Part shown: positions 17,569 through 54,743 of the stretch, piece by piece
Numbering within the stretch: position 1 is the first letter of the stretch
Layout: each line of letters begins with the position of its first letter
DNA from: Antedon mediterranea
Lineage: Eukaryota; Echinodermata; Crinoidea; Comatulida; Antedonidae
DNA: 64,000 nucleotides
NCBI RefSeq assembly: GCF_964355755.1
Contig: NC_092673.1
Location: forward strand, 34,791,648 to 34,855,647
Direction: 5' to 3'
The notes under the pieces: model-generated
Told to the model about the DNA's origin: nothing
Seen by the model: only the letters and a program-made list of their open reading frames with translations
The model's database searches: none
Translations under genes and position numbers: made by a program

Positions 17569-20500
17569 ATGAATATGTTCAAACAATTGCTTCAAACAGT
17601 CTGTTTCAGAATTACAAGAACAAGTAAATTTAAATATATTGATAATATACATTTCGTAGACATTGACCATTGATTTTCTAGTTGTTTATTGCAAGCTATA
17701 ATCTAGAAACTGTTGTTAGGCTAGGCCCAGCCAGACCTGGTCTATCACTATTTGTGAATTATTGGGGTTGGCACTATAGGCTAGATTAAGCGGGAGGAAA
17801 ACAGACGGTGAAGGTATAGGTGCCAGGCCTAGCTTGTCCACTACAACTGGAGTAGAATTGATTTCTTTTATTTTTAAACCCTTTATTCTAATTTAGGCCT
17901 ATTTTAAAATGTATTTTCTTTAACAGGTAATGGCATTATTAATACATCACATCGGTTAAGCCAGACGTTGTCTGCTTCAAACCAAAGTAAACATTTTTGC
18001 ACGCAACCCCAACCTGATGATGTAAGCATAGGCTATATTTTTGTATTTATTTCACTCGACCTGCAGTCTCAGGTTACATTTCATAAAATGCTACATAAAA
18101 AAAATCCCAACCTGTCGTACAGTATAGGTTATAAAGCTCTGTCCACACTATCAAACTTTATGTGACAAAAATGTCACATATGGACATATCACTACCATAT
18201 TTGGGCACAGCACACTTTTTTTGTCTAACTAATTCAATAGTGTAGACAAACGAGGACCGACGACACATCAAATGGCATCGCCGCAAATTGAAAGCTCCCT
18301 ATTGGTTCAATTCAACTGGAACACATGGCGTTTGCGTTTCATACATATAATACTTCTGAGCTTTACAGACACAAATCACCTTATAAACTTGAGACGCTTG
18401 TAAAGTAATATTAAACAAACATAAAAAAGGAAATAACTAGAGACTTGGAAAAAGTCTACAGCCAGCAGTTCAAGTAACGATAAAAAAAATTGTTGTGGTC
18501 ATTAACATAAGTCAATGACTTAATATAGCCACTCAGCACAGTCATAATCCTAAAATCTTCTGCCTGAATTGTACCAGAACCAATATAATCCAAGAAAATA
18601 AGACATTCATGATGAACATCATGTGCAGTCTGTAGTACCGTACTAGAGAAATTAATGTTTAATGTATGATTCATAACCAAGCAATTAACTATATTTCTAG
18701 AGAGCCAAGTATTTGAAATGTTCTAGGCAGAGTTGTTGTATGAAAATGACAAAGTTGAAAATTAAGGATGTTTTACTCATGCTTTCTTTTCTTGGAATAG
18801 TCAAACAATTAATTCATTCATTGATAAGAGATTCCGTTACATGTAAAAAAAATGTTCACTAGATAAAAATCCATGCTGCGCAATTATTATATACCGTTAT
18901 ATAAAAATCTTTTGGTTTTTGCAAAGAAAAATATAATTTTTTTAAGGAGTTGGCTAGATTAGATTGGGTTGATGATTATCCATATTTTACAACTTGGCAT
19001 GGGACATAAAAAGGTGTTTTTTTTTCAATTAGCCAATCAAAATTCAGGTTAACATTAAAATAAATTAAAATATAACATACTTAACAATTGATTCTGCCAA
19101 TACAGCGCTGTCTGAAAACCAGACTTTTATTGAAAAGGTCCCAAGTTTCTTTCTGCCATTAAAAACACATTTTAAAAAATAGCATAAAACCAGGAAAACC
19201 AGCCGTAGGCAACCAAAATGTGTTTGTGTATTATGATTTTTATTTATTTGTTTGTTTGTTTATTTGTTTGTTTGTTTATTTATTCTTTCTTTATTCTGCA
19301 GGCACTTTCAGTACTAGTGCACTGATTTTCAAAGTGGTACAGTAATTGGAAATATCATAACTAACATGATAACATGATAACATGACAAGCTCTGCTACGA
19401 AAAATGACATAAACGCTACCATAGGAGGTGTCGGCTTACTCCTAAGCCCCAGAGCAATTAAATCCCTTAACAAAATCGAGAAAATCAACTCCAGAATTAT
19501 TATTGCAAACTTCAACGGTAACCCAGAAACCACAAGTATCTCTTGCTACAGTCCTACAAACGTAGCAGATGAAGATTTGGTCACTCAATTCTACATCGAA
19601 CTATCCTCGTTAGTTAGAGATGTTCCAAAACATAATCTTTTATTGATTGGAGGAGATTTCAACGCTCAAATTGGTATGGAAAATAACAAAACTTTTTCCT
19701 TTCATGATCAGACAAACCGAAACGGTGAACTTTTTCGGGAGTTTTCTGTTGAAAACCGGCTGCTGGTTCTGAATACCAAGTTTCAAAAGAGAATGGGTAA
19801 ACTTTGGACCTTCCAATATGCAAACGGTAGAAAAGCTCAACTTGACTACCTTCTTATAAACCACAAATGGAAAAACAGCTGCTTAAACTGCGAAGCATAT
19901 AACAGTTTTGCCAGTGTGATATCAGATCATCGCATCGTTTCCAGCCGTATAAGACTGAGTCTTCGAGCAAACAACAAAAAACTTGATAATCCTCCGCCAT
20001 ATTATTGGAAGTCCTTAATACACGATGGTAATACCCTCGTGCGGTTCACCATTGAACTTAGAAATCGATTTGATGCTCTCCAAGATGAAAGTGTGATCGA
20101 CAATCCAGATACCACCTATGAAAACTTTGTGAAAGCACACTGGGAAGCCGCTTCCAACTGTATTCCCTTGAAACCTAAAAAACGCAAAAGAGTACCCTGG
20201 GAAACGCAGGCTATTCAAGACCAACGAGAGAGGATCAAATGATACAACTCGTAAAAATGCTAACCCTAACCCTACACCCCAAAACATCTCAAAATTCAAC
20301 AGAGAGAAGTTAAAGTTGACGAACTGGAAACCTATCTGCAAACTAAGATTGACTCGATTAAGCAATATTCGGTGAATAAGCAATCATCGATGGCCTGGGA
20401 TACGATTAATGAAATCTCAGGTAGAAAGCGCATCAGTCAAGCAAAGCTGAAAGCCACCAGTCAAAATGATCGTCTAAATCAATGGAAAAACCACTTCAAG

Positions 20501-23500
20501 AACCTTCTTGGCAACATTCCCAATATAACCAATGTGGAAACCATTGAGCTATTTCCAGCACAGACTGAATCTAATATCAAAATCGGTCCTTTTAACGACG
20601 AAGAGTTAAACAAAGCACTCACAAAAATGAAAAATGGAAAATCCCCAGGACTTGATGGGATTCCTCCAGAAGTGTGGAAAACGAAACATTTTAACAACGT
20701 ACTCTTGAAGTGTTGCAATGAGGTCTATGAACAAAGACCTATTCACTACTGGACAAGAGGCTGCATACTACCGTTTCCAAAAAAAGGAGATCTTGGAAAG
20801 GCCGAAAACTACAGAGGAATAACTCTCACCCCCATTGCTACCAAGATCTACAATCTTATGCTCTTGAATAGAATACAACCATGGATCGAGACAATACTTC
20901 GTAAAAACCAAAATGGTTTTAGACAGGGACGCTCAGCAAGCAGCCAGATTGTCACAATTAGGAGAATACTTGAGGGAGTGCGTGACAAAAATCTTCCTGC
21001 AGTCCTCCTCTTTGTAGATTTCGCAAAAGCCTTCGATTCTGTCCATTGTGAAAAGATGCGTGAAATTCTTCTCGTCTACAAAATTCCACTTGAGATTGTC
21101 AATGCCATAATGATGCTGTACAAAAACTCAAGTGCCCTGGTTCGTTCTCCAGATGGTGATACTGATCCGTTTCAGGTAAAAGCAGGCGTCCTTCAAGGAG
21201 ATACTCTCGCTCCCTACATCTTCATCATATGTCTTGATTATGTTCTCCGCTCGGCTATTGATCCACTCAACAAACACGGCTTAACATTGAAGCCAAGAAT
21301 CAGTAAGAGGTTCCCTGCGACATTGGTAACTGACGCTGATTATGCTGACGATATAGCCCTGTTGTCGAACACGATTGCTGGAGCAAAAACCCTCCTACAC
21401 GCCCTTGAAAATGCTGCATCCTCAATCGGCCTCCACATAAATGCCAAAAAGACAGAAAGTATGAACGTAAACTGTCAAGGTCAAATTCAAACTAGCTCCG
21501 GATACGCTCTCAATCAAGTCGACCAGTTAACCTATCTTGGCAGCAACATTGCCTCAACAGCAAAAGACGTTGATATACGTATCAGCAAAGCCTGGTCAGC
21601 TCTCAAACGCCTGACTGTCATATGGAAGTCCAACATCTCAAACAACATGAAGAAAAATTTCTTTAAGACCACAGTCGAGTCTGTCCTTCTCTACGGGTCA
21701 TCGACATGGACCCTAACTAAGAAACTTGAAAACACTCTAAACGGAACATATACTAGGATGCTACGAGCCGTTCTTAATGTTTCGTGGCAAGAGCACCTCT
21801 CCAACGCTCAGCTATATGGGAATCTTCGCAAGATCACCGATGTTATCAAAGAAAGAAGAGTCCGCTTTGTTGGACACTCTTTCCGCAACAAAAGTGAACT
21901 GATAAGCGAACTTATGCTCTGGATGCCATCACATGGGACAAGAAGACCAGGAAGGCCCCCAAAATCATTCATTGACCAACTAGTTGCGGACTCCGGCCAT
22001 ACAATTGAAGAGCTACCAAGAGCAATGATGAACAGAGACGGCTGGAAAGAAGTAGTCAAAAGGATCCGAGCAAGCTCGACGCAGTAGTAGTCGTAACATG
22101 ATAAAGTAAACAAAGAGTAATCAAAATAATAAATATAGAAAATTTACATTAAAATAGAAATCAATTTTAGAAAAGAAAACTTAGTATAAATATTGTATAT
22201 TTTGGAATGAAGTTATTGACATATTTTTAAAGTTAATTTTTAATTCATTTATTGGACATGGTCTACAAATGTCATAAAACTTCCACCACAACTCATGCTA
22301 GACACGTTTGATTTAAAACTTAATCCTATATGATTGAAAACATAATGTAATATTAACTAAAAATATATTTTTTAGCTTTGGAAATCACTCAACCATAACT
22401 TGCAGTATTAAAATGTTAATAGAGTTTAATATTAATAGAATATCTACAGATAGCCGTCCCTCGACTAGAATTGAGATTTTAATTATTAATTTGTATTTAA
22501 TTGAACTTTTAAATATTGTTAATTACAATTATATAATATTATTTATATTATTCATATTCATTTATTTCAAGAAAAAATAACACATAAAAAACAAGTATAG
22601 ACGATGGTCAACAAAACAAAAAAAAACCCATGACACCATTCTGGCGGATTGTCAAAAAGCAATAAGAATATCGCTGTAAACAGACTCTCTTGATAATTTT
22701 GGTTGACATAATTAAGCATTTACAATCTGGTTAAATAAAAATTATATAAATCAAATAAAAATTTATTTTTATTGTAAAGAAACATTTCCGTAATGTTGTT
22801 ATACCTTTTAATAGTTATGAGGATTGTTCGTGATATAATGTATGCCTACTGGTCTAAACTGGAAGGGTTGCTCTCTTTAAAGATGGTTAAAATAAGACCA
22901 AACAAAGAGTTATAAAAATGTAAATTTATGATTGTGCTATTCAAATTTATTTTCATATGATAAACACCCTATATGTAAATCAACAGGTAGCAATCGGCTT
23001 TAATTTTTTTTTTTTTTTAAATTTATTTTATTGGTACACCAATTTAAAATGTTTATGCGGTCTGCTATGCTTCACTGGCTCTGTGCCCGCTAGGTGCCAT
23101 TTAATGTAATTTTAATACAATTCAGTTAACATGATTTTTGAAAAATTATTTTTTTAGCCTAAATCTGACATGAGTGACCCGTTTGTGAGGGAGAAAACAA
23201 AGTGCTTATTGTGCCAGAACAATGTTCCACTTACTTATAAGGTTTGTCACTCCTTCCAATATTATAATAGCCAAGTTTAATGGCAGTTACCTGTAATATT
23301 ATGATAGCCAAGTTTATTGTCGGTTAGCTGTAATATTATGATAGCCAAGTTTATTGTCGGTTAACTGTAATATTATGATAGCCAAGTTTATTGTCGGTTA
23401 ACTGTAATATTATGATAGCCAAGTTTATTGTCGGTTAACTGTAATATTATGATAGCCAAGTTTATTGTTGGTTAACTGTAATATTATGATAGGCAAGTTT

Positions 23501-25289
23501 ATTGTCGGTTAACTGTAATATTATGATAGCCAAGTTTATTGTCGGTTAACTGTAATATTATGATAGCCAAGTTTATTGTCGGTTAACTGTAATATTATGA
23601 TAGCCAAGTTTATTGTCAGTTAACTGTAATATTATGATAGCCAAGTTTATTGTCGGTTAACTGTAATATTATGATAGCCAAGTTTAATGGCGGTTAGCTG
23701 TAATATTATGATAGCCAAGTTTAATGGCGGTTAACTGTAATATTATGATAGCCAAGTTTATTGTCGGTTAACTGTAATATTATGATAGCCAAGTTTATTG
23801 CCGGTTAACTGTAATATTATGATAGCCAAGTTTATTGTTGGTTAACTGTAATATTATGATAGCCAACTTTATTGCCGGTTAACTGTAATATTATGATAGC
23901 CAAGTTTAATAGCAGTTAACTGTAATATTATGATAGCCAAGTTTAACGGCGGTTAACTGTAATATTATGATAGCCAAGTTTATTGTCGGTTAACTGTAAT
24001 ATTATGATAGCCAAGTTTATTGTCGGTTAACTGTAATATTATGATAGCCAAGTTTATTGTTGGTTAACTGTAATATTATGATAGGCAAGTTTATTGTCGG
24101 TTAACTGTAATATTATGATAGCCAAGTTTATTGTCGGTTAACTGTAATATTATGATAGCCAAGTTTATTGTCAGTTAACTGTAATATTATTATAGCCAAG
24201 TTTATTGTCGGTTAACTGTAATATTATGATAGCCAAGTTTATTGTCGGTTAACTGTAATATTATGTAATACTTGCAATGCACAATATTCTGATGTTTTAA
24301 AAATCTCTCTCCTTTTAAATTATTTCATGTTGCTTTAAAAAGAACGATACCACTCTCTCCTTCATATGAATTGTTTAAAATAATCTTTTTTAGGCTTATC
24401 TTTCGTATTGATATTATTAAAGTGGTCAAGGCAAGGGTGCCACAAACCATAGCCATAAAACAGCATAGGTTCAAGTCTCTTTGACCATAGGACAAGTGTT
24501 TTGGAAGGATATACAAATGTGGCAATTTTCAGAAGAGTAGAGGGAACTTTCCCGGTGTCCTGTTTCAGTTCGGCCCTGTCATTATGGACAGAAGAATTTA
24601 TGATGTGTTTACATAAATATTGTATGTGTCGTCCACACCTGTGCACAATTCAGCCAAGTTAGGTTGCAAGACACAGCTCAGTCCCCAACATGTATTTAAT
24701 ATTGGATCAGATATATGTAAAATTATTCAATTATTTGTTTTATCATTTCAGAATGTCCAGTTATTATCACAATTTATTTCACCAAACACTGGACATATCT
24801 ATGGTCAGCGTATAACAAAGTTATGTAGACGGCAACAGAAGAGAATTTCTTATGAAATAAAAAGATCTAGACGAATGGGTAGGTATAGAATAATAATGAA
24901 TATCTTGGACTGCTGCCTTATTGAATGGAATAATTGAATAAATAAAACAGTAGGTGTGTTATAAAACAAATAATGAAGGTTTATATTGTCGAATTGTGAG
25001 CATATTTCATTCGTTAAGATTGGCTGCTCTATTTAGACTCCGCTCTTCTCATATTCATTCATTATTTGTATTTTATTTTCTTTCAGGATACATGCCAGTA
25101 ATGTACCGCGATACAATCTTTTTGAAGGATCCAGATCTCTTTGGTTCCCATTACGCTGGAGAGGTGAACATTGGTGACGCTGTTCGCTTAGAGCCTAGGC
25201 CACTGATAGACTCACCTGTACAGAAAAAAACAGAAAAGAAAGAAAGATTTAAAAGATCTACCGAAAGCAAGAAAACTAAAAAGAAATGA
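17569..25289 (+). CDS. MRPS18C: Small ribosomal subunit protein bS18m (mitochondrial S18C), 5 exons
   Basis: Exons: 17569-17623, 17927-18021, 23158-23241, 24752-24878, 25087-25289; they join in frame to 564 nt, 187 aa. The product is the bacterial-S18-type subunit of the mitochondrial ribosome small subunit. Residues 1-25 (MNMFKQLLQTVCFRITRT) are basic, with Leu/Phe and no acid, as expected for a matrix-targeting presequence. The S18 core spans about residues 58-150: KCLLCQNN, then VQLLSQFISPNTGHIYGQRI, TKLCRRQQKRISYEIKRSRR and MGYMPVMYRD, the order seen in MRPS18C. After FLKDPDLFGSHY the protein continues about 45 residues into a Lys-rich tail, longer than in human (142 aa). Introns contain a LINE, a MITE and a large 37-bp satellite. 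The exon-1 Met is the first in frame; a second Met two codons on is equally possible. Confidence 0.94.
18135..18250 (+). mobile_element. MITE family A copy 5
   Basis: It opens CCACACTATCAAACTTTATG and ends AATAGTGTAGACAA, with ACTACCATATTTGGGCACAG between. It has a shortened middle and lies in MRPS18C intron 2. Confidence 0.78.
19382..20242 (+). pseudogene. LINE endonuclease region (truncated)
   Basis: The frame gives GGVGLLLSPRA, ISCYSPTNVADE, LLLIGGDFNAQIG (catalytic Asp/Asn region), QLDYLLINHKWKNS and VISDHRIVSSRI (SDH motif), the C-terminal three quarters of an AP-type LINE endonuclease. It ends at TGA 20240-20242. In the same frame stops also occur at 20252, 20261 and 20267, in a short CCCTAA-rich patch, before the frame reopens. 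The N-terminal catalytic Asn/Glu motifs are absent, so the product is inactive. Confidence 0.85.
20270..22087 (+). pseudogene. LINE reverse transcriptase region
   Basis: Open from about 20270 in the same frame as the endonuclease. RT motifs follow in order: KNGKSPGLDGIPPEVWK, GCILPFPKKGDLGKAENYRG, NGFRQGRSASSQI, LLFVDFAKAFDSV (motif A Asp), GVLQGDTLAPYIFI (motif B) and TDADYADDIALLS (motif C catalytic Asp pair, 21341-21352). The C-terminal part has YLGSNIA, RRVRFVGHSFR and RRPGRPPKSFIDQL, typical of LINE ORF2 ends. The RT domain itself is intact; only the upstream stop cluster and truncation disable it. Confidence 0.88.
22105..23157. other. MRPS18C intron 2 remainder, AT-rich
   Basis: About 1 kb of AT-rich intron with no open frame or recognisable repeat. 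A T/A tract at about 23010-23035 precedes the acceptor TTTTTTAG at 23157. Confidence 0.45.
23254..24266. repeat. 37-bp minisatellite, about 27 copies
   Basis: The unit is TGTAATATTATGATAGCCAA followed by GTTTATTGTCGGTTAAC. The array begins about 12 bp after the donor of MRPS18C exon 3 and fills the first kilobase of intron 3. A rare variant unit (GATAGGCAAG after GTTGGTTAAC) occurs at 23491 and 24083, 592 bp apart (16 units), indicating duplication of a 16-unit block. Confidence 0.96.
24267..24751. other. Remainder of MRPS18C intron 3
   Basis: Single-copy-looking sequence. A 95-codon minus-strand open frame (24362-24646) has no recognised domain and no clear splice context, so no gene is called. 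Confidence 0.4.
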
Positions 25290-25497: not shown

Positions 25498-26440
25498 TGC
25501 AATAGTAGATTGCATGACCCAATCATGATTCATGCAATAGTAGATTGTTTAATCTACCATTGCATGACCCAATCATGATTCATGCAATAGTAGATTGTTT
25601 AATCTACCATTGCATGACCCAATCATGATTCATGCACTAGTAGATTGTTTAATCTACCATTGCATGACCCAATCATGATTCATGCAATAGTAGATTGTTT
25701 AATCTACCATTGCATGACCCAATCATGATTCATGCAATAGTAGATTGTTTAATCTACCATTGCATGACCCAATCATGATTCATGCACTAGTAGATTGTTT
25801 AATCTACCATTGCATGACCCAATCATGATTCATGCAATAGTAGATTGTTTAATCTACCATTGCATGACCCAATCATGATTCATGCAATAGTAGATTGTTT
25901 AATCTACTATTGCATGACCCAATCATGATTCATGCAATAGTAGATTGTTTAATCTACCATTGCATGACCCAATCATGATTCATGCAATAGTAGATTGTTT
26001 AATCTACCATTGCATGACCCAATCATGATTCATGCAATAGTAGATTGTTTAATCTACCATTGCATGACCCAATCATGATTCATGCACTAGTAGATTGTTT
26101 AATCTACCATTGCATGACCCAATCATGATTCATGCAATAGTAGATTGTTTAATCTACCATTGCATGACCCAATCATGATTCATGCAATAGTAGATTGTTT
26201 AATCTACTATTGCATGACCCAATCATGATTCATGCAATAGTAGATTGTTTAATCTACCATTGCATGACCCAATCATGATTCATGCAATAGTAGATTGTTT
26301 AATCTACCATTGCATGACCCAATCATGATTCATGCAATAGTAGATTGTTTAATCTACTATTGCATGACCCAATCATGATTCATGCAATAGTAGATTGTTT
26401 AATCTACCATTGCATGACCCAATAATGATTCATGCAATGG
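25498..26440. repeat. 50-bp hairpin-forming satellite, 19 copies in exact register
   Basis: TGCATGACCC recurs every 50 bp from 25511 to 26411 without any length change. Each unit holds an inverted repeat, GCAATAGTAGATT and AATCTACCATTGC, separated by GTTT or less, plus the palindrome AATCATGATT. Variants (CATGCACTAG at 25631, 25781, 26081; AATCTACTAT at 25901, 26201, 26351) are spaced 150 and 300 bp, showing a 6-unit higher-order duplication. It starts about 210 bp after the MRPS18C stop. Confidence 0.96.
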
Positions 26441-28362
26441 TAAAGGTGTTTATCTGCTATTGCAGTCTAGATTATTTATATAATGGTGCGGTGGTAGATT
26501 TGTTTTGCCTTTGCACAAACCAACCATTACATAAACCAATCAGTCCAGCGTATTAATATACAATGATACATTTTGTTGGATCTACTGTTGCAGACCAAGA
26601 CCAAACATGCAGTGGTTGATGTTTTTGCTGTATTTGTTTGGTTTATAACTCAAAACAGTTCTTTTTATTAAGATTTTTTATTAAAATGAGATTTGATAGA
26701 TGAATATTTATGAATGTTTGTGGTGGTATAGATACCGCATCCCATAAAAGAAAAGATCTGAAAGACGAATTTGTCTCAAACAATCCGCAATCTAGCCTTG
26801 TATATTGATTATGATGCAGTCAATAGGAGAGAGAAGAGTTACTATTTAAACGGATTTGAACATATTATTAAAGCCCCATTTGTGTACTTGTGGGGATTTT
26901 AGTATTGGCGCAGATCCGTTGGGTGGGAGAAGCAGTCGGACATCCAGCATTCACGCAGTTTCAATTTTTTTTCAAAATTGTGTGTACAGTGCAAGAATCG
27001 ATGAAGAAAGCAATATTTTTCGTCCTCAAAAATCAGCGAGGAAAATTGTCATGCGTACCAAGGCTCTCTTCCCCATTTGCAGTATCTGCACCATGGATTA
27101 CATAGATATCATCTGACCATGGCTTTTCCAGAAGGGATCATCATTTAAAAAATATATTTTTAATATATTATTTATATATTAGCTGGCAAAACATACATAA
27201 TACAATTTAAATAAATAAAGAGGATTTTTCTGCTTGTTTGTATCAATAAAGTAATAAGTTATTTCTCAATGTTTGCATAAACAGTGAAAGATTTATTAGT
27301 AAAAATAAGAAATAATGATTGATATTACATAATAAATAAATGACATAATATTGAATACTACTACTACATAAGATTGATCACTAGGCTATTTTGACACCTG
27401 CATCGCATTAACAAATTAAAAATAAATGATGATAATATTAAGATAATGAAAACCAAATAAACTAGAGGCACGAATTAACTATGTTGATAAATACTGTAAT
27501 CGGCATATTTACGCCAATTAACTGCAATCAAGCACAGAGTTCGTTAAAATATGTAATGATTCAGTCTGACCAGGACGATAGCTAGATACACTATTTAAGG
27601 AGATCAATGCAAACATATTAAGTCGATTATTTACCTTGAAGATCTCGATTTATTTTGGAGTGAACTATTACCAGTTATCATCTTGTTCAAACATTGTTAG
27701 CATTCTCCGCGATTGTTACCGTCAATACGCTCATTCACGGTTTAGACCAGTAATTTCCCTATTTTATTTGTTGACCAATATTATTAACACGATAGCCACT
27801 TCTGTACAAACATGTGGCCAAAGCTAATGTCATTACCGCGCTGTTTCGTTGCTATGTCTTTCATATCATCCTTTACGTTGGATAAAAATTACCGCTTATT
27901 ACGTATAGGAGACTACTTAAGACATATGTACATTACATAAATCGCCGTTAGCCAGTCATCCGCAGTTTGTTCGTGTACTGACATACTACGAAATCGAGTG
28001 TATCTCGTTTACAAATTAAGGGTAATGAGTGAGACATCTTCAAAACTAATTGGTTTGTCATTTTAGTCCGGTGATACCAATCAAGCACTAGTTACAAGCG
28101 ATGTAATAAGTGCACCTAATGTATGTCTTTAATCGTGGAATATTGATTTTCACTCTGTTTAACTAAATATCTTTACATTGTAAGTGTAGCGGATACCGAT
28201 TTTTATGTGTCGCTTTTTATATCAGTCGGTGTAACTACGAATGATTTTCTAATTTATATAACACTTGAGAGTGATGCTATGATTCTTAACGGTGCAAGGT
28301 GGTCGTAAACTTGCCTTTTTAAATTTATCGTGACAGAGAAGATATGATGGACTTGGCATAAG
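26441..28362. other. Intergenic region between MRPS18C and the receptor guanylate cyclase
   Basis: AT-rich sequence with no supported gene. Overlapping short frames at about 26856-27116 lack domain or splice support. The stretch from about 27500 to 28362 is less repetitive and should contain the promoter and 5' UTR of the cyclase gene; no specific motif is called. Confidence 0.4.
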
Positions 28363-29041
28363 ATGATGGTTCATAAATGTTCGATATGGCCAATCATAAT
28401 AGTCTTGTTAAACGATATATTATTCTGTGGATCGGATGAGCTGTTAGTAGTAAATATTTTTCTACCGTGGAAGTCTACCGAAAAAGAAGCATACCCGTTT
28501 TTAATTGATCGAGTTAAGCATGTTATACCGCTTGTGGAAAGTCGAGCAGCAACCAGCCTAGGATCAGGACATCTGCAAATTAATTTACACGATTCTGCTT
28601 GCGATACGAGACAAGCCCTTGGTAAAACTGTGGAATGCTATGCAAATTCAACCGATATCATCATAGGTCCACCGTGTACCAAGCCCTGTATGAGCGTTAC
28701 CGACTTAACTAGTTATTGGAATTTACCTTCGATTTCTTGGTTTTGCGGAGACAAAATTTTATTTTCAAATAAAACTATTTACCCAACGTTCGTTCGAATC
28801 GTACCACCATTTTATAAAATCGCCATATTGACTCAAAATGTTATGACATTCTTCGAATGGAAAAGGGCATGTATTATCACTAAAATTGGTTCATTGTACG
28901 AGTCTTTAGCAAATGCGATCCAGGTACAAGGCTCGCAAGAAAATTCAACCTTCGAGATCATTAGCATTGAAACGTACGCACGCGGTATTAGCCGAGCTTT
29001 AGCAAGTAAAATATTAAAGAATATCAAGACCGTTTGTACAG
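28363..29041 (+). CDS. Receptor cyclase exon 1: signal peptide and ectodomain lobe
   Basis: This encodes residues 1-226. The start [20 protein letters not shown] is a signal peptide. [12 protein letters not shown] opens the first periplasmic-binding-like lobe, and [17 protein letters not shown] with [13 protein letters not shown] matches the conserved ANF-receptor hinge region, including paired Cys residues. NST, NKT and NST are potential N-glycosylation sites. The exon ends G|GTAAGT. Confidence 0.9.
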
Positions 29042-32000
29042 GTAAGTGGATTCGATTATTTGGTAGTATATCATAGAAAATAATAAATATGTGTTATAGT
29101 TTTGAAAATGGTGAAAAGGATGGGTTGTACAACAAAGAGTACGTTTGACAAACTTTTATGACATAGTCGACAAGTACCTGATATAGTCGACAAGTGTATG
29201 ATGTCCAATTTGTGACTCCGTGATGTCACAAAATCATGAGTATCTTAAAATAATAATAAAATATGGGCCTAATTAAAAATTAGACAAGTTAATTTCGCAT
29301 CGATTGCGGTAAGTTTAATAAAATGCTTGTATTGGTATTCTTTACTGTGATTATTATTCTTGACTATAGTATTATACATTTGAAAAAGATGATGAATCGT
29401 AAGCACGCAAGGTCAACATCGAGACAGAGTGCGCCGATCATGCCTCAGGAGATTCTACATCATCCAGATGCTCCCATCGGGTTGCAAAAGGTTTTCGCAA
29501 AATGAATGAATGTATTGCTGTCTTCTTTAAATTGTATGTACCGGATAATAACGATAAATGAACGCCCACAATATCGTGACAGAGTGTCCGGCATGTAGCC
29601 TCTGTCTCAAAAGAATAGGCCTATGCAACAACATCCATATAATGTTGTTCTGTATGACTATACAGGTCATTTAGATAAACCCGCCGTATGTATAAATCAG
29701 AAATGAACTTTGAAAATCGCGACAGGAGAGTTCCCGTGTTATGTGCTCATCGGTGACTGAGATTGTTGATCATCCAAAATTGATGATGCAAGTTACCTAT
29801 AACTATAATGCGTTCATATGATTTGAATTATTTTTATTCTTTCTAATTTGCATAACTCTAAATTTAATGACACCTGTATAATACTATCTAAGAATAAAGA
29901 TTATTATAATGTGTACAGAACACTTTAATGTACGTTTCTGGTAATGTTCAACATTTATCCAATTACACCTATTGCAATGGAAGTTAATTTAACAATCTTT
30001 ACCGTTGCCTCGCGTGACATACATTTCGAAACTCGAAGAAAAGTCTTATTTTGTTGACGCACTATAAAATCAAATTCGAGTACTATAGGCCTACAGTATG
30101 CGGTTCGTAGTAACACATTTTAAAGTATTAATACTCCTATACATTAATTATGAAAAGGAATATGCATTGCTTCGAATTTAATTAGAGATTAACATGGAGT
30201 CATTTGAAGATTACATTTAAATTACGTGTAATCTGAACAGTTCATGAATTCTTATTTCAGAATATTCATGGAAAAATAATTACCAAACGCTTTAGCACAT
30301 TAAACATGTGGCAGCTGCTTGTCACGTATGTGACGCATTCGACACAAATAAATCTAGTTTAGAAATTACACTATGAGCAAACGATTAAGTATGCTTTTCA
30401 CTGTACTTAACTTGTTGGTCATTTTATTACACTTGTAAACTGGATCATTAGCATTTTCCATCCACGTGATACATCGCGTCGAGCGTAGTGCGCGTTTAAA
30501 AAAAGTTAATGAATATTCTAAAGTATCAATATCTATTTCTTGATATCTTACTTAAATCGGCTTATCTTATCTTATCTTATCTTATCTTCCACCGAAATAA
30601 CAAGATTAGTCTTAGCATGAAACAACAAATATTGATAATTTAAAGCAAGGTTCCAGGGTGGAAAACCCAAAAAATCACGGAATAGAAAATAAAATATGAA
30701 AGAAAGGAAGAAAACTTTTATTGGACATGATATTTTATGACTTATTTCCCTTTAAAGATATATTGTTCCCCCTGAAAAAATAAATGTTTTTGTTGAATAT
30801 GCCATTTTAATGTCACATGCATAGTAGTTATTCACTTTGACCAAAAATGAATTGTTTACCTGAAAAAAAAAACCCGCAAACAATTTGACTGGAAGTCAAT
30901 GGGCTTTTGTTCAATCTGTTTTTTATTTTGTCTTTTTATAAGTAAAAAAATTTTTTTTTTCTACGGAAGTGATTAACTTGATAAAACCACGGAATGACCT
31001 ATTCAAAGTTTTTTTTTAAATATTAATCTTAATTTTTCATGTTTTTTGAAGAAAATAAATCTTTAACCTCTCATTCAAAAGTTGTTCAAAAGTCATGGAA
31101 TTTTTGGCTAGAAATTACTGTTAAGAAATTACGCTGGATTACATGACCACAAAAAGACGGCAACGTAGATCATACAATGGTATAATGCTTGAACTTATAA
31201 TTCAATAAGTGACAATTATCTTAAAAGCTTTGTCTACACTATCAAACTTTATGTGACAAAAACATGTGACCATATATGGACAAGATGATGTCATATCCCT
31301 ATCATATTTAAGCATATATCACTACCATATTTGGGCACATCACACTTTTTTGTTGTCAAACTAGTTTGATAGTGTAGACAAAGCTTAAGTTTCACAAGTT
31401 TGACGGTCGCAAAAACAACTTACTAAATATATATATATATATATATATTCGTCAACATGATTTACAAAAAAAGTAGCCTAAAGTTTTTTTTATCTTTGCC
31501 CAATTTTTCAGTTTAGGAATGATTAGTCATAGGCCTACCATTTAAAACAGTTTTTTAACATTTTAGTCTATATGTTGTATCAAACAGTAATGTTTTATAT
31601 TCCGTGCAGTTATCTGGTTGATAGTTGGTGGAGTAACTATTATATTAAACAGTAATGTTTTATTCCGTGCAGTTATCTGGTTGATAGTTGGTGGAGTAAC
31701 TATTATATTAAACAGTAATGTTTTATTCCGTGCAGTTATCTGGTTGATAGTTGGTGGAGTAACTATTGTATTAAACAGTAATGTTTTATTCCGTGCAGTT
31801 ATCTGGTTGATAGTTGGTGGAGTAACTACAAATGAGGAAGATGTCCAGATGTTTATGTTGGCGTCCAGTGATCTCGGAATGACGTCAGGAGAATTTGTAT
31901 TTATTCATTTTGATCTGGTTCCCGAGTTGACAAACATGACGAAACGATGGCAGACTATCGGTCCGATATTGAATCAGAACAACGAAAGAAAAATAAGGGA

Positions 32001-35000
32001 CGCATTCGACACATTGTTAACCATTACTTTCAAGTAAAATAATTTTTCATATTTATTTGTTATACTGTAGTTTAAAAGTAAAGACACAACCTACCCCACT
32101 CAGTACGAATGAAAATGCTTCTTTGATGAGATTTGAACTCATGTTTACAGATCACTTACCTGGAATCATTACGTCCTATCCCCCTTCCTCCACCTATAAT
32201 TTCTAAACCGTTGTCTGATAGCTTTTTGGAAGTCATTCTTTATTAATAGGCCTCTGTAACTTACAAATCTATCCTACAACACAAATCATGCACGCACCTT
32301 TTTTCCTAGTTTAAACTAAATAGCAAATATAGCCTACAATCATGAAGAAATAATATATATAATAACTTATTTCCAATGAGTTGATTGATTGATTATGTTG
32401 TACTAGGCATTATCCTATTTGTATCTGCACGTTACTTACAGGTTACCAACAGACGGTCGAATTGAGAAAATGAACGACGTACAACCTAAGGCACAGGTAG
32501 TAGAAGGTCATTTGTGACGGTTATTAGTTATTAAAATAATATTTTAGTACCTTATATGTGTGTAGATGATGGATGGTGATTATGACGACGTAATTACAAT
32601 GATGATGATTAAGCTGACGATTTATTATTTTCGATACAAACGCTAATGATGAAACTAAAAATGTGTAAATAATAAACACATAAGGAATAATGATAATTTA
32701 ATAGATTTATAGTTCAGTGTTTTATTCAAACCACCACAGTATGAAACTGCAGATGCATTTAAATAAAATGACAAATATAGACTTCGATATAAACAATTAA
32801 ATTTAAATCTTAAATTCAAAATATTTTATTCTGAAGACTTTGAAATATTAGTTTCCCATTGTTTCTAAGCCGGATCTAACTTATAATCAGTAACAATTGT
32901 AACAACAACGTTATATAGATTCTTTCATTTAGGCCTAAATTGCTATTTGACAACGTTTAAACATTTTAAACAGTTATTGTACTTGCGTCACTGTTTAATA
33001 ACCACTGATTGTTATAAAATATGATTAATATACAATGTTTACCACTACATGATAATGGCACTTTCATTGAAAGTTTAAAGAAATAACATACATACATACA
33101 GAAAATATATATGAAGGCGGTTGGCTGAAAATCAGTAAATCTTTACTTCATTTTTGAAAGCGCAGTTTTGAATAGTAAAGGAGTAGTTCATTCTATAACG
33201 CTCTATCAAACTTTACGTGACAAGAAATGTGATGTGCCCATATATGGACATGATGACATTATATCACTACCATATGTGGGCATATCACTACCACATTTGG
33301 GAACATCACACTTTTTTTGTCAAACTAGTTTGATAGTGTAGACAGACCTTTTAGTAGCATTATAAAAATGTTCGCAACAGATGTTTTATAACAATATGTA
33401 ACCCGAAGTTTGCCTTTAATTGTCTTTTCAGAATCCCAGTATTATGGCTGCTTATCTATACGATGCTGTTATACTGTATGTAAACACAGTTGTTTCAAGT
33501 AGCTTATCATCACACGATGGATACGCGGTCGGCAGGTCACTCAAGACCACAGCATTTGAAGGTGTGTACTGTACAAATAGAGTGTTGACAAAGTGCGAGG
33601 CAGCGAGGCACGCGAGGCAAGCGGGGCATGCCAAATATTTGTGCGAGGCATCATTTTATCATTTCCAAAAGTGCGAGGCATGCGAGGCATATAGTTTACA
33701 ATTTCAAAAAGGTGCGAGGCATATCTTAACGTGCTATTATGCTATATTATAGGCCTAATAATCAATCGATACAAGCGTATCTAAATAGATTCGTGTATAC
33801 ACTCATCATGTTGTTTATTTTTATGTAACGATTGTTTTTTCATTCAAGTCATATCGTGTCAAATTTTACTTTTACAAAAGTGCCCAAGCTACGGTTCAAA
33901 AATCTGAACGACAGTCTTCAACTTTCGATAAACAATAATTGTTATAGCAACACACTCATCAAATGACTGCAATGTTTGTTGGCATTTCGAGCGTGTTCAC
34001 TCACATGTCTCTCGAACATAGCAGAGTGAAAATAATATTTTGTCACACCCCTGCGCCTAGATCCGGTAGACCCGAGAGATGGAAAATCCCTCTTTACTAT
34101 TTAGCAGGTAGCGGAATGATTCAGCCCTCAGCTCAGAGGATTGTGGTGCATTCCCCTCCTATAGCACGTGGTTTCAGCAGCAACGCACACTACAGACTTC
34201 TCTCTGAGCGGCGTGCCAAAGACATTTTTGACATTCCATTCTTTAGGAACAACACGTGTACCTCTCTCGCAAATAAGGTGAACAGCAATTGCCAGGACAA
34301 GTTCAATAACACACACGTACCAGCACCCCATTGGCTGGTCATGACGTAATGCAATTTTACCGTACCTTTAGTAAACAGAAGTTAGAATACGGTACCGTAT
34401 CTTTAGCCACGGCGTTTTACTTATTGTTGTCCATGTACGTACTAATAAACCTGGCGCTAGTTTCCTTCGCTTGTATTTTTACTCCAAATTTGATAACTAA
34501 CTTTATCGTCTGAATACCACACCTTAGAAGTATACCTCATGAGTACTTTAATGAAAGAATCACATAAAAAGTAACAAATAAATCCTTAAATTAATGATTT
34601 TACAGGCGTGTTTCTCGCACACTGTTCGCGAATTTCACTTATTCAATGTTCAATATTTTTGTTTCTATGGAGCGCCAAAAGAGCAACGATAATAGAGGAC
34701 TAAAACTCAGTGGAATGCGTCAATTTCTCATGCATTTATTGGTGAAAAACACGTTTTATTTCAATATATTTAAAGTTAATTTGTCAATAAAAATGTTGTA
34801 ATATGTTACTGCTGATACTGTTCTGTTTTCAAAGAATAATAATCGATCCTAAATCAACATCACTACCTAGTCTAGACCTAGGACATCCTACTAAGGATAT
34901 TATGATGAATTTTTCTATTTTATTCTTTAAAAGGTTAACGAAACCGTGTACATTATCAACAGTAACATTTTTCCTTACTGACAGTGACAAAATCTATTGA

Positions 35001-38000: not shown

Positions 38001-41000
38001 ACCGGTACTGTATAATGTACCGGTACTGTATAATGTACCGGTACTGTATAATGTACCGGTACTGTATAATGTACCGGTACTGTATAATGTACCGGTACTG
38101 TATAATGTACCGGTACTGTATAATGAGAATAATACTGTATATGACAAATCCCAACCTTACCTGATACAGTCAACATGCACGTGAAATGTATTATGATACT
38201 AAACAACAGTATTGCCATATGCGAAACTTAATGAATAGGTAATCTGTTTATATGGTTTACACAAATATGTATTTTTAAGGGTGTTACACACTATAACGAT
38301 AACGATCGACGATAAATATATACATAGGTATCCTATAATAGTTTGTTCGATTTATTTTATTTGTGTGTAAAAACACATATTTATCAACTTCTCGTCGATC
38401 GTTATCGTCCATAATATAATTGAGTCTTTTATTCTATTTCAATCACTTTCCATACAGGATGCTTATCGATTTGGACCGGTAGCGACGTTTTTTTATTTGA
38501 ATAAAAGCGTCACAAGTTTCGGCACAATATTATGGCCGGGAAACATAAAACCAGGCGACACAGTTATAACAAAATCGGGTAAGTATTATTATAGCGCTAT
38601 GGTTTATGTGTAATGATCATTAAACTTTATAATCATAGTGTGCCACATACTAATATCTCATAGAAGACTCCCCCAAAGATACACAGATGTTGATAAAAAA
38701 CATTTGTCCGCCTAGCTACTACTATCAACATTAATATTTTGTATGCACATGTACATAAATGCATACATTTGTTTTAGTTTGTACGAGTACTATACGTACC
38801 AAAATACATTGTTATAACATTATTCTATACATGCTGTATTATCAGCATTTTACGCATGCATCAAGTGTTTTTGGCTGATACTAATAATTTAAAGCGGTAG
38901 ACCTACACGTGAACATTTTTTTTTAGCACTTTAAATACTGTAGGCCTATTATTAGTTTTAAAAAATGGTTATAATATGGTTTTCTTTAACAGATTGGTGG
39001 ATAATCTTGGTAGTAGCTGTTATAGGTGTAGCTGGAATAGTTATCATAATGGCAGTCCTATGGTTAAGGTAGTGACATCATCTTTCACTTCTAATTTTTA
39101 ATGTGTGTTTCTTTTTTTCTTCTGTTTGTCGGTTTCTTGAAATTAGGAGTCAAAATCGGATCAAACGAAACGTGACCGAAATCATTTGAATTTAAATTAT
39201 AAACCTATTATTTAGAGAAAACTATTTGTATTGAAAATATATATTGTAAATCAAAAAGTTTTGGCATAGACAGACGCTATATAAATATAAATATATATAT
39301 ATAAATACGATATACCTCTATTATATATTAGCAGAGAAGATTTGTCAATTTTAATCGTTACTTTAAATTTCCGCTAAAGGAATAGTGACTTAGTTATTTT
39401 AATCAGAAAATAAATAATTATTTATTCGTATAAACTACCTCTTGAAACAATGAAGACAATACTGCCACCTTAAATTAAATAACGTAATCTTTCAATTTGT
39501 TCACAGCGCGAAATATCGTAAGTATATCAACAGGAAAGATTGGCTGATAAAGTTTGACGATTTGATACCATTATATCATCACAATTTACTAGCGGTAAGA
39601 TTCAACGCATTAAGGCCAATTTACACTGACGAGCCGCCCAGGACAGATACATATTCTACGTGGGACAAGCTACGCGTTTTTCTGCTTACCGTTACCACTC
39701 GTCTGTGTAAATTGGCATCCGATAGCATGACCAACATAAGTGTGTCCTTATGTTGTTTTGTTCTCGCGTTGTGTGTAAATGGTCATAAAAATAGGCGCGT
39801 CCGTATACTGTAATTTAATTGGTTGAAAGTTGTTTGCGCTGAGCCAATTGATCAAATTAAAATATGTATATATTTTTATTCAATGTGTTTTTAAAAAATA
39901 ACTTATATGTTCAATACGATCATTTTTTGTTTAATTTATTTTTTGTCGAGTATTTTTGCGGTCATGAAGTAAACCTTATACATTTACAGACAACCTGTTT
40001 GCCGTCAACCGTGCAGCTTCATCAGACGTCATCCGCTGGCCAGGCCGAGGCATCGTTGTCATTGGATGTTGGCGATTTAGCGGCTGAGTTACGTCATGGT
40101 ACTCAAACGGTAGCTATTTATAAAGCGCAATACGTAGCGGTTTTGACAGGCCAGCTGAAAAACTTTCATCTGAATAAGGTCACAAAGAAAGAACTGCAAG
40201 CGGTAATAATATGTTAATCATAATTAGATTGTTCTGAATAATATGACGACTAACATTATGATGATGATAATGATGATGATATTAATAAAGATCAGTAGAG
40301 TATCCAGAATGATGATGATGATGATATTAATGAAGATCAGTAGAGTATCTAGGATGATGATGAAGATATTAATACAGATCAGTAGAGTATCTAGGATGAT
40401 GATGAAGATATTAATATAGATCAGTAGAGTATCTAGGATGATGATGATGATGATATTAATACAGATCAGTAGAGTATCTAGGATGATGATGAAGATATTA
40501 ATACAGATCAGTAGAGTATCTAGGATGATGATGATGATGATATTAATACAGATCAGTAGAGTATCTAGGATGATGATGATGATGATATTAATACAGATCA
40601 GTAGAGTATCCAGAATGATTCGGGAGCTTTCTATTTCCGATGACCAAACTATGTCACGTTAATTCATTGTGCGCATGCGGAGATATTAGGACGTTTTTCC
40701 TCACTTCCTCACCTCGACAAAGGTTTGACGGTTTCTACTGAAGGTCTAGGCGACGACGACGATACATCGATTGACCTGATCGCAAATCAAAAGATCCGCA
40801 ATGTCTGCGTACTGCGTCCAGAATTCTACATTGAGATCATGGCGGCGATTGCACGATCATTCAGTGTACACCGCCTAACAAATGCATATCTTAACGTTTT
40901 TTTGCAGTTACGCTGGCTGGTTCACGACAACATAAACCGCTTCTTAGGAATATGCTTCCCTCCTAAAGACGATGAAATGCTTTTATACTTAACCGAACAT

Positions 41001-44000
41001 TGCTCAAAAGGAACGCTTCGTGTTGTGTTAGATAATGACGATATCAAGCTTGATTCTACGTTCAAAATGTCTTTTATAAACGACTTAACTAGAGTAAGAA
41101 ATGTATGGTAAAACGCTAAGACTTATCTACAGATAGTAATGTATGTTGAAATGCTAAGATACATTAGCAAGCTATAATTGTTTGTCTTCCGTTTTCATTA
41201 TCAATAATTCATACAATTGCATAGAATTTCTACAAATGTATTTTTGCAATTAGGTCTCAATATGAATTTTACACTTAAGCCTAAACTCTGTATCTTGCAG
41301 TTAGGCCTCGCCTCACTCTGGATATTGGATTTAAGCCTCCTTTGATTTTGCAATTAGGCCTATACATTCATAGGCCACAGAATACATCTAGTAATGCCAT
41401 GTAGATAAAGAAATATGTTTAGTGTATTTAAATTTGACGTTTTCTTTTTATTTAATCGTCTGTTTTTGTTATAGTTTGTTATCCCTGAGTAGGCCTACAG
41501 GGTACAGACAGTTATACAAAAAATTTGGGCATCGCCTACTAGATTTTAGATTTAAGCCTCGCTCTGATATTGCAATAGGCCTACACTCTGTCTCCTGCAT
41601 TTAACTACTTTGTGTATTTTGTCCATGCTTTATAGGGTCTTCAATACATTCATAACTCAGAGATTAAGTCACATGGTTTATTAACGTCAAGTCTGTGTGT
41701 AATTGATAGTCGATGGGTGTTGAAGATTACGGGAATTGGAACGATTGCACATCAAACATACAAAGACAATTTATATAAATCCGAACCATCGTACAGATTT
41801 TCCAGTAAATATATTTTTTAAGTTGTTATTGCATTTTTGGAATTCACGTTTTATTTATTTTGTATTTCTAATATATTTTCTTTATCTAGAGAAAACTTAC
41901 AAACTCAACAAAAAGGCCTACTTTAAACAAATTAAAAATACTAAATATTTTTTAAATAAGTTTAACAATAATAGCGCATTTTTTTTTAATGTAAAGATTG
42001 GTTTGCAATGCAACGACCGCCGAAGCGCAACGTACGTGAGTTGACCAATCACAAAAGACCAATCGCGTCGTGATAGGTCAAATTATGTCCAGCTTTAAGC
42101 GTGGTAACCACTAGAGGTGCAACCAATGACGTAGACGCATGTTTTTGTTTTGTTGCATATTATCATTGCAGCCAAAACTGAATTACAGAATATTTACATC
42201 AACATTTATAAAACAAACTAAATATACACAATACATGCATATAACAAGTTTAGCTATGACAAGCGACAGTTAGAATCATCCATCGCGTGTGATTGGTCAG
42301 ATGGCTTTCGTTGCGCTTACGTCATTGCGTCCTAGTGGAAACCACGCATTACTCCCACAATTACCAGTTAACTATTTGAAAAAATATCTTTTGGAATAAT
42401 ACATTTAATTTAACAGTGTCAATTTATCAAGAAGTCATGACTGCTCAGGATGATGCTAGAATCAATCATCACCAAAAACACCTAACCTAGCTAACCCCTG
42501 ATGCTTTATTTGTAATAATTCGTTATTTTATTTCCCGTAGGAATGGTGTGGACAGCACCCGAGCTGCTGCGACAAGAAATCCCCATCAAAGGCAGTCAGA
42601 AAGGAGACATCTACTCATTAGCAATAATATTATATGAAATAGTTTCACAAAACAATCCTTATGCAATATATGAAAAATCACCAAAAGGTACAGTTCACAT
42701 TGCACGCTATTTGCTATTGAAGGTTGAACCAGTCAGTTCAGTCAGTAACAATTACCGTATATCACTAGTCATCATGTTATGGTGGCGATGTTAAATGTCG
42801 GCAAATAATTACAAAAATAGACATATGACGTCAGAGAGCTGATCATCATTTTTTCATACGGTATCATACATATAATATCACTCATAAACAAGTAGAAATT
42901 GTTTTTATCTAAATTTAAACGAAATTTATTTATTTAAAACGTGTGTTCATTTGTCACGTAGGCTAATCGCTGAAATAAAACGGTCTTTATTTCAGAGGTG
43001 ATACGTCTGGTGATGAAGCGAGAGGAGCCTCCATTTCGTCCAATGAAACAAAGTCATTTTTCTGAAATAGCCAGTGATGGAACTCTAAACGGCTTACCCA
43101 CTGAACTACTAGATTTCGTCAAACAAGGATGGGAAGAGCTTCCCGAAGACAGACCAGATATACACTCATTTCGTCAGAAACTCAGGATCGTCAGGAAAGG
43201 CCGGTAAATCATGTGCTTGTGAAATTATGGTATAAAGGAAGGAAGGTAGTTTTCTGAAGGATAGTTATGCGTCCCTGGGGTAGTTGCACAAGGAGTAGTT
43301 GCACAGGGGGTAGTTGCACAGGGAGTAGTTGCACATGGTGTAGTTGCACAGGATGTAGTTGCACAGGGTGTAGTTGCACAGGGGTAGTTATCTATGAATT
43401 TTAAAATATATTTACACATTTTAGCAATGTATACCTATTTTATTTGCTTTTTTAAATATTGTTTAGAAAAGAAAGTATAATGGACACAATGCTGGCGAAA
43501 ATGGAAAAGTACACGGAAAACCTGGAGAAGGTTGTATTGGATAGAACAGGACAACTACTGGAAGAAAAGAAGAAAACAGATGAATTACTTTACAGAATGC
43601 TGCCACCGTACGTACTTTACTTCAGTCTGTCCTTTTCACGGGGCGCCGTTTGGAACATTGTTTAAAGGGCTTCTTTTGTTAACGAAATGGGAATATTTCA
43701 AACGGCACCCGGTACATAAATCAGACCCTTTCTTTTTGTGCCGGCAAATCTGAACAGCAAATCAAGCGTGCGGTACGGTGCAGAAATTGATTTTTTAATT
43801 TTTATTGTTCGCACTAAAATAAAAAGAAGTTATTTTATCAACAGAACTATAAATAGTTTATCAAATATGAATGATTTGGTATTGTATAAACTGAATATCC
43901 TTTATGTTGTAGTTCTGTTGCAGACTCACTGAAGCGTGGCAATGTTGTAGAAGGCGAGTTTTATCAAAATGTGACCATTTACTTTAGTGATATTGTCGGA

Positions 44001-45932: not shown

Positions 45933-46563
45933 ATCGATCAGCACACTTTATTCTTGATTCTGTCGTTGGAAATGATAGGAAGGTTCAGCTTCCACACAAC
46001 GTAACAACTAAATTGATCAGCAAACTTTATCTCTGGTTCTGTCGTTGGAAATGATAGGAATGTTCAGCTTTTACACAACGTAACAACTAAATCAATCAGC
46101 ACACTTTATTCCCGGTTCTGTCGTTGGAAATGATAGGAAGGTTCAGCTTTTACACACAACGTAACAGCCAAATCGATCAGCACACTTTATTCCTGGTTCT
46201 GTCGTTGGAAATGATAGGAAAGTTCAGCTTTTATACACAACGTAACAACTAAATCGATCAGCACACTTTATTCCTGGTTCTGTCGTTGGAAATGATAGGA
46301 AGGTTCAGCTTTACACAACCTAACAACTAAATCGATCAGCACATTTTATCCCTGGTTCAGTCGTTGGAAATGATAGGAAGGTTCAGCTTTACACAACCTA
46401 ACAACTAAATCGATCAGCACACTTTATCCCTGGTTCTGTCGTTGGAAATGATAGGAAGGTTCAGCTTTTATACACAACGTAACAACCAAATCGATCAGCA
46501 CACTTTATTCCTGATTCTGTCGTTGGAAATGATAGGAAGGTTCAGCTTTTATACACAACGTAA
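45911..46563. repeat. About 79-bp minisatellite, 8 copies, starting inside the cyclase stop region
   Basis: The unit holds ACACAACGTAACAACTAAAT, CGATCAGCACACTTTATTCC and GTCGTTGGAAATGATAGGAA, ending GTTCAGCTTTTA. The TCGTTGG word recurs at about 77-82-bp spacing. The first unit supplies the last codons and the TAA of the receptor cyclase, so the array occupies the 3' UTR. Confidence 0.93.
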
Positions 46564-50929: not shown

Positions 50930-51112
50930 TGTTAAGTTATCCCCTCATATATAATGCACCTTTGACGTGCCATACTATCATTATTCGCGGGTCCCTTTTT
51001 GTGGTGAAACCTCGTGAGATGATAAATAAAACACACTTTGCTCTTTAATTTCCGTAGTTTCTGTATTATTATTTCTATATATTCCCGATTCCAGGTTACA
51101 ATGGATTCAACA
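50930..51112 (+). repeat. 5' LTR of the copia element
   Basis: It carries a TATA-like TCATATATAATG near its start and AATAAA at about 51024, so it could serve as promoter and polyadenylation region. The gag ATG (51101) lies inside its last 12 bases. Confidence 0.93.
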
Positions 51113-52183
51113 GGTTATGGGCCCAGCCGTTTTCAAAGATTGCTTTTTAACGGAGATGAAGAAAAATATGAACTTTGGGAAGTAAAATTTCTAGGGTACC
51201 TAAACACACTAAAACCAGCGTTAAAAAGCACGATTACGTCTACACAGCCGGAGCCAGCCACCGACGATGACAACCATAAAAATGAAAAGGCGTATTCGGA
51301 GCTGATACAATTCCTGGACGACAAGTCATTATCGTTGATCATTAACGATGCAACTGATGACGGGAGAAAAGCTCTGTCTATTTTAAGAACCGAATATTCT
51401 AGCAAATCTAAACCAAAAGTGGTGCAACTTTACACCAAACTAACAACACTCGAAATGGGTGAGGAGGACTGCACGTCGTTCATTTTCAGAGTGGAAAAGA
51501 TTATCACATCATTACAAAGAGCAAAAGAAACACCTAGTGACGCACTTCTAACAGCAATGGTATTAAAAGGTTTGCCTGGAGCATACGCTCCATTTAAAAT
51601 ATACATAAATACACAAGAAAAAGACATATCTTTTGTAGAATTTAAAACATCCTTAAGAAAGTTCGCAGAATCAGAGAAACTAAATACACCAGAATCTAAT
51701 AACGACAGAGTGATGAAAGTTGGAAACCCACAAAACTCCAGAAAATGCTACGAGTGCGGATCACCTAACCACTTGATAAAAGATTGCCCTACAAAAACCT
51801 GTAAATACCACAAGAATGCCAATCACCTTGACAAGGACTGTTTCAGAAATAAACCAAAGGACCAAATAAAGAAAGCGGAGGATGGATTTGAACATTCCTT
51901 TTTCTTTCAAGTGTCAGAAAACATAACATGTCAAGATGGTATTTTAGTAGACACTGGCTGCACCTCACATGTAGTAAATGACCGAGAGAAATTCTCCAGT
52001 TTCGATCCAACCTTTAAAAGCCTTAATCATACTATTGAACTTGCGGATGGTAGCGTAGCAAAAGGTGTTGCAGTAAAGAGAGGACATGCACACATAAACC
52101 TGATAGATGAAAACAACGAGAAAGTAGAAACTGTCTTAAAAAATTCCCTGTACATACCAACGTATCATATCCACACAACATAA
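51101..52183 (+). pseudogene. Copia gag and protease region
   Basis: The frame starts at the ATG inside the LTR end. Gag shows the copia UBN2-like pattern (NGDEEKYELWEVKFLGYL, then FRVEKIITSLQRAKE) and a CCHC zinc knuckle CYECGSPNHLIKDC at about residues 216-229. The aspartic protease motif DTGCTSHVV (Asp about 284) follows. The frame stops at 52183 within the protease-integrase linker, where the reading continues in another frame. Confidence 0.88.
51113..51127 (+). promoter_or_regulatory. Primer-binding site complementary to the anticodon arm of initiator tRNA-Met
   Basis: GGTTATGGGCCCAGC directly follows the LTR. Its complement GCTGGGCCCATAACC is the anticodon stem-loop of metazoan initiator tRNA-Met (recalled sequence). 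Drosophila copia primes in this way from a cleaved half-tRNA, not from the tRNA 3' end. The site is also translated as part of the gag N-terminus. Confidence 0.85.
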
Positions 52184-53818
52184 TGAGCGTAAGAGCTGCA
52201 ACGACAACAGGAGCAAGAGTAACCCTTAGTAAAGAAGAAAACACAATCACTAATGCTGGAAGAACATTCAAAATGAGTATTATTGACAACCTATACTACT
52301 TACCAACCACAAGTGCACCTAGAGAAGTAGATAAATTAAGCCTTGTTAAAGATTTACAATATTGGCATAGAGTCCTCCTAGGACATTGTAACTTTGACGA
52401 TGTACTAAAATTAGAAAAGGTAGTGGACGGCATGGAAATCAAAGGTAGTAAAGTTAAGGAAACATGTAACATATGCACTGAAGGTAAATTTGTTAATGTA
52501 AGAAATAGAGAACCAGACAAAAGGGCAAATTGTCCATTAGCCTTAGTACATTCTGATCTGGCAGGGCCAATATCACCATTGGCTAAAGACGAATTCAAAT
52601 ACGCCATATCATTTACTGATGACCATTCTGGTTTTGTTTTTGTTTACTTCCTCAGAATGAAAAGTGATGCTGCAGCAGCTACCAAACAATTTCTTTCTGA
52701 CTGTGCCCCAATAGGCAAAGTTAAGTGCTTGCGAACTGATAACGGTGGTGAATATGTCAGTTCTGACTTCAAAAGCCTAATGACAGATAGAGGTATTAAA
52801 CATGAGTTTTCATCTCCAAATTCACCCCATCAAAATGGAACCGCGGAACGTAATTGGCGCACTCTTTTTGAAATGGGTAGATGTCTTTTGCTGGAATCTT
52901 CACTGCCAAAGTCCTTATGGACTTATGCAGTAAGAGCAGCGACCTATATAAGAAACCGTTGTTTCAACCAACGCCTAAATAAGACTCCTTTTGAGACCAT
53001 GACTGGCTATAAACCAAATTTGGGAAAAATGCACATTTTTGGAAAACCTTGCTACGCATACATACATAACTCAAAGAAACTAGAACCTAAGAGTAAGCGT
53101 GGTATGGGATATGATTCATCTAGTCCAGCATATTTAATCTATGACCCAAACACTGGCAAAGTTCAGAAATTCAGATTGATAAAAATTATATCTCACCAAA
53201 CATCTAACACCAACCAACAAACACAGACAGATGAAAGTGACGAAACAAATGTAAACTTGGAGGATAATGAGAACACAAATGAATCCCAAATTATTGAACT
53301 TGAAAATACCCCAAATGTTAATAATTATGATAACTTAGAGAAAAATGACAACAATGGGGTAGATATTGATGATGCCCACAGAAGGTACCCTCAAAGGGAG
53401 AGAAATTATCCCAATTACCTACAGGAGTATGAGACTGAATTTGACAGTGATGATTCGATCTATCATATGTCATGTCAAAATGTTCCCTTAACATATACAG
53501 AAGCTACAAATTCCCAATATTCAGAAAGTTGGAAAAGGGCAATGGATGAAGAATTACAATCATTGAAAGATAATAACACCTTTAAGATAGTCACATTACC
53601 CAATGACAAACACCTCATTGGCGGAAAATGGGTATTTCCTATAAAGGAATCGGCCGAGGGTAATCACACGTACAAGGAAAGATACGTTGCCAAGGGTTTT
53701 AACCAAATAAAAGGCATAGACTATATCATGAGACATTCTCGCCCACAGCCAATTTGACCTCAATTAGAACATTAATGCAAATATCTGTACAACATTATAC
53801 AGATATTGACTGCTTAGA
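52183..53818 (+). pseudogene. Copia integrase and start of reverse transcriptase
   Basis: GAG-pre-integrase zinc-binding His/Cys residues (WHRVLLGHCNFDD, CNICTEGK) precede the integrase core, with VHSDLAGP, RTDNGGEYVS and PHQNGTAERNWR giving the D,D,E triad. RT opens with WKRAMDEELQSLKDNNTF and IGGKWVFPIK. The frame is lost at 53755-53757, and copia-type RT similarity continues in another frame up to the insertion at 53819. Confidence 0.87.
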
Positions 53819-54742: not shown

Positions 54743-54743
54743 T

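Follow-up and report, generated by a model that had tools for sequence, protein, structure and literature searches.

Minisatellites that duplicate intron-exon boundaries are described in lancelets as "mirages" (PMC3087553, PMC3902484), and in the excerpts of these papers on which the comparisons below draw, the genes concerned are Adh3, the globins BflGb6 and BflGb9, TnC, and PGBD5. In the BflGb6 mirage, the 3' end of an intron is repeated together with the 5' part of exon 2, and many units carry splice signals; Adh3 mirage units are 10 to 72 bp, and the PGBD5 repeats, of 60 and 108 bp, lie over splice sites (PMC3902484). Unit number varies, with 6 and 3 units between haplotypes of BflGb6, and 2 or 7, and 3 or 6, between assemblies for PGBD5. 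RT-PCR on lancelet mirages suggested that regular splicing is undisturbed (PMC3087553), and the Adh and TnC mirages are cited as producing no aberrant mRNAs (PMC3902484). According to the excerpted text of PMC3087553, cryptic use of repeat copies could yield alternative transcripts, and boundary repeat units are proposed as seeds of new introns. In potato, a tandem genomic duplication in an RdRp gene is linked to intron gain (PMC4974935, abstract-level account).

The locus described here has the anatomy of the BflGb6 mirage. It differs from the lancelet mirages, as these are excerpted, in that the repeat sits in a receptor guanylate cyclase gene, that the unit measures 63 bp and is in frame, that the number of units is 4 versus 20 between duplicate genes, and that one of the two arrays has a five-unit higher-order pattern. 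It is like potato RdRp in having a tandem duplication inside a gene, with the difference that a new intron is reported there and none is shown here. The titles and abstract openings of the literature searched hold no description of this array or of acceptor repeats in guanylate cyclases.

The window is a stretch of 64,000 nucleotides, and the gene and its boundary repeats lie on its forward (+) strand. Exon 1 (28363 to 29041) contains the start codon and the N-terminal part of the ligand-binding domain (ANF_receptor match of its open reading frame [ORF], 3.4e-22), and ends at a phase-1 donor GTAAGT at 29042 (ACA G/GTAAGT). The body of exon 2 (31799 to 32033, with a GTAAAA donor at 32034) and exon 3 (32442 to 32496) are placed by reading the sequence and by comparison with the exons of a sister gene, and profile matches to Guanylate_cyc (PF00211) fall in three pieces of the same gene at 43956 to 45161 (C4:34835603-34836808), the middle piece with one TAG inside. 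A putative kinase-homology domain, the part expected between the membrane and the cyclase, is read by eye at about 39990 to 43204, and the two ORFs scanned from it match no Pfam family at an E value of 0.001. Receptor guanylate cyclases with an ANF_receptor ectodomain have the same ANF_receptor and Guanylate_cyc pair that occurs here within one gene. The gene is identified by these matches as a receptor-type guanylate cyclase, in agreement with the sequence-only reading; its ectodomain is divergent from those of solved receptors.

At the junction of intron 1 and exon 2 is a 63-bp minisatellite (31578 to 31828; TRF period 63, 4.0 copies, 97% matches, score 470), each full unit of which matches the end of the intron over 33 bp and repeats the first 30 bp of exon 2 exactly. 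The repeat unit therefore spans the intron-exon boundary, as placed by phase and homology. The acceptor TTCCGTGCAG occurs four times, at 31600 to 31609, 31663 to 31672, 31726 to 31735, and 31789 to 31798, in exact steps of 63, 63, and 63 bp, the fourth copy adjoining the exon 2 body. Unit 1 has an additional AT directly 5' of its acceptor (TTTTATATTCC), which leaves the downstream frame unaffected. When joined to the phase-1 donor of exon 1, all four acceptors are open through exon 2 to its donor, with acceptors 1, 2, 3, and 4 adding 189, 126, 63, and 0 bases relative to the last, so that two claims of the sequence-only reading hold: the acceptor and the first codons of exon 2 are present in four in-frame copies, and no unit contains a stop.

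An open, in-frame array is nevertheless weak evidence of function by itself. A period divisible by three is expected by chance about one-third of the time, 48% of random tails drawn from the same intron with the 63-bp geometry are stop-free, and 8.4% of random unit lengths (0.084) combine divisibility by three with openness, which makes the array unremarkable on this count. The opposite strand of the array is likewise open, over 113 amino acids (aa). Selection for an open 63-bp frame is not needed to account for the array, as openness is frequent by chance and is broken in the sister copy.

The sister copy is on the same contig, some 228 kb further downstream, its exon 1 match separated from that of the window gene by 227,853 bases. 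A genome search with the 63-mer returned at least 24 matches, of which 4 fall within the window and 20 within an array at C4:35051680-35052959, and a dispersed mobile unit finds no support, the 63-mer being at two places only among the matches listed. By the acceptor pattern TTCCGTGCAG itself, with which the copies were counted, there are 4 in the window array and 20 in the sister array, and unit number is not stable between the duplicate genes. Successive acceptors in the sister array are separated by 65 bp (10 of 19 steps), 63 bp (8 of 19), or 66 bp (1 of 19), and translation from acceptors 1 to 16 stops after 13 or 34 residues, with only 17 to 20 remaining open. In the sister array, therefore, divisibility by three is not maintained. 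At one sister unit (L005:6696), GTAAGT replaces GTAACT, which creates a donor-like site close to the consensus within the portion of the unit derived from the exon.

These data bear on the proposal of the sequence-only reading that several acceptors are used, adding 0, 21, 42, or 63 residues to the ligand-binding domain in a length-variable receptor series. Repeat number does vary between the duplicate genes, and all four window junctions are in phase and open, with local splice signals that are nearly equal: the acceptors have near-identical local sequence, and no local feature marks the last as stronger. As regards the scanning argument of the sequence-only reading, by which the first AG after the branch point is often favored, every window unit contains further AGs, the nearest 18 to 20 bases 5' of the acceptor, and the AG-free zones of the four array acceptors are 20, 18, 18, and 18 bases, those of six other exons being 33, 18, 41, 55, 32, and 36 (10 of 20 acceptor rows, those with a position ending in AG, were used; the positions of the other 10 were off the AG and these were dropped). 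A series kept translatable finds no support, because most sister acceptors meet early stops and the ANF_receptor score drops when units are added. Exons 1 to 3 joined through the last acceptor, with no extra residues, score 108.5 bits (cut-off, 25.4), and this falls to 99.6 with 21 extra residues and 99.1 with 63. The alignment continues through the 21 extra residues, but with 63 the best stretch ends at residue 231, five residues beyond the junction. The lancelet precedents are also reported, in the excerpts of PMC3087553 and PMC3902484, as splicing normally, and we regard a receptor-length series as very improbable.

Comparison with solved structures was done for the form with no extra residues, for which the best match is the natriuretic peptide clearance receptor (E value, 5.6e-09), a receptor that itself lacks the cyclase. 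The alignment crosses the exon 1/exon 2 junction, and shortly after it there is a five-residue gap in the solved receptor, so that the predicted protein is already slightly longer there than the clearance receptor without any added units. Since this form scores best against ANF_receptor and its junction lies within the aligned stretch, use of the last acceptor is favored. Exon definition, as generally understood, fits the same choice, because the exon is 235 bases from the last acceptor versus 424 from acceptor 1. An isoform test on three distant paralogues (L008 to L010) was set aside, as the best-ORF local alignments miss the exon 1/exon 2 junction and all isoforms scored alike; the tandem repeat searches of these loci, 9 kb each, gave 3, 3, and 1 rows.

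The array is very probably a minisatellite of the mirage type. Replication slippage or unequal exchange would have amplified a 63-bp segment that by chance straddled the intron 1/exon 2 junction, the last acceptor, adjoining the exon body, would make the receptor, and the upstream copies would behave as intron and serve at most as minor cryptic sites. A different effect on expression is conceivable, in which the upstream acceptors are decoys, used often enough to lower productive splicing; in the window gene this would do no harm, and in the sister it would produce early stops. The decoys do have nearly the same local signals, and 16 of the 20 sister acceptors do lead to early stops; lancelet mirages are, however, reported in the excerpted accounts as leaving splicing undisturbed (PMC3087553, PMC3902484), and we give such a dosage effect only a slight chance.

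The history of the two genes is consistent with an unstable minisatellite. All 18 exons compared are present in the sister, with no gaps and no stop among the changed codons, and there are 6 synonymous and 10 nonsynonymous changes (pS, 0.0086; pN, 0.0040; pN/pS, ∼0.46); exon ends in this comparison were set by eye, and at least one exon between exons 3 and 5 (ORF 33420 to 33752) was left out. With only 16 changes in all and exon ends set by eye, the argument from intactness is limited, and the sister gene might lack a function and simply be too recent to have decayed. Identity between the copies is 97.1% over the stretch that takes in exon 1 and the greater part of intron 1. A third, partial gene copy at C4:34862001-34882000 (L013 to L014) matches only from window position 42501 onward.

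The units themselves are spelled cdced cdced cdced fgaa in the sister and aab in the window, the sister array thus having a five-unit pattern (cdced) repeated three times. Unit type a is common to both arrays, so that an array of some kind was probably present already when the gene was duplicated, its length and frame altering afterwards. A shared unit type followed by such changes points to an unstable minisatellite and is unexpected of a frame kept for length variants. A possible hint of selection is that, in the window gene and its sister alike, the frame is kept at the four acceptors closest to the exon body; the chance of three in-frame steps in a row at the end of the sister array is about 0.09 (9/19 × 8/18 × 7/17), and we place no weight on it.

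Assemblies tend to collapse or expand tandem arrays, and repeat number could in principle be an assembly artefact. The draft version of BflGb6 in lancelet appeared aberrantly assembled, according to the excerpted PMC3087553. The two arrays here have distinct unit types and a higher-order pattern, and the left flanks of the two gene copies differ: the left edge of the duplication is near window position 24319, and the sister sequence to the left of this edge, over 8.2 kb, has no window match of 250 bp or more, which counts against a simple assembly double. To the right of the gene, the sister matches in pieces at least to window position 56604, the end of the stretch compared. That both arrays are wrong is unlikely, even if the exact counts may be off, and we consider an artefact in repeat number very improbable.

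The gene is rich in repeats, with tandem arrays making up 13.9% of its region, and its splice sites seem to have been hit by chance. Two of 34 splice boundaries fall inside arrays; random shifts place 4.4 there on average, and two or fewer in 12% of cases, so that targeting of repeats to splice sites is unsupported and no such targeting is needed for the mirage-type explanation. The second boundary repeat, found by TRF and the boundary test, is a 38-bp repeat in two diverged copies (80% matches) at 41082 to 41159, over the donor of exon 10 (exon end, 41094), and its second copy lacks the GTAAGA donor.

Several other repeats are present in the window. An 81-bp array of about eight units (45915 to 46563) begins just 5' of the last exon's stop codon and occupies the sequence that follows, and two upstream arrays, at 23258 to 24265 (37 bp, 27 copies) and 25509 to 26464 (50 bp, 19 copies), are near the left edge of the duplication. 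Two elements, read by eye at approximately 31227 to 31386 and 33200 to 33349, have inverted ends (∼ctatcaaac ... gtttgatag) flanking short ATATCACTACCATAT-like repeats; they resemble small non-autonomous DNA transposons, and one of them is in intron 1 upstream of the acceptor array. The ORFs at 19373 to 22087, 51026 to 55334, and 57602 to 58618 are labeled, from reading, as resembling a LINE with reverse transcriptase, a Copia-like element, and a gag-like gene. A globin search gave five exon matches. A search for the GFP family returned no match, as was also the case in the control genomes, and ferritin exons compared with solved structures pointed to no clear phylum.

Taken with the domain scores and the sister comparison, the array looks like another case of the known mirage kind and not a designed receptor-length series. 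We give a small chance to the idea that repeat number is a dial on receptor output, with the window gene tolerating misuse in frame, through extended ectodomains, and the 20-acceptor sister losing most misplaced transcripts to early stops; if so, a single minisatellite would set the duplicates apart in both dose and length. Should the species fall outside the lancelets, mirages would extend beyond the cephalochordate descriptions, as excerpted from PMC3087553 and PMC3902484. The duplicate pair, with 4 and 20 acceptors, is a natural test of acceptor choice by the spliceosome where near-identical sites follow one another, and of the tolerance of minisatellites that span boundaries.
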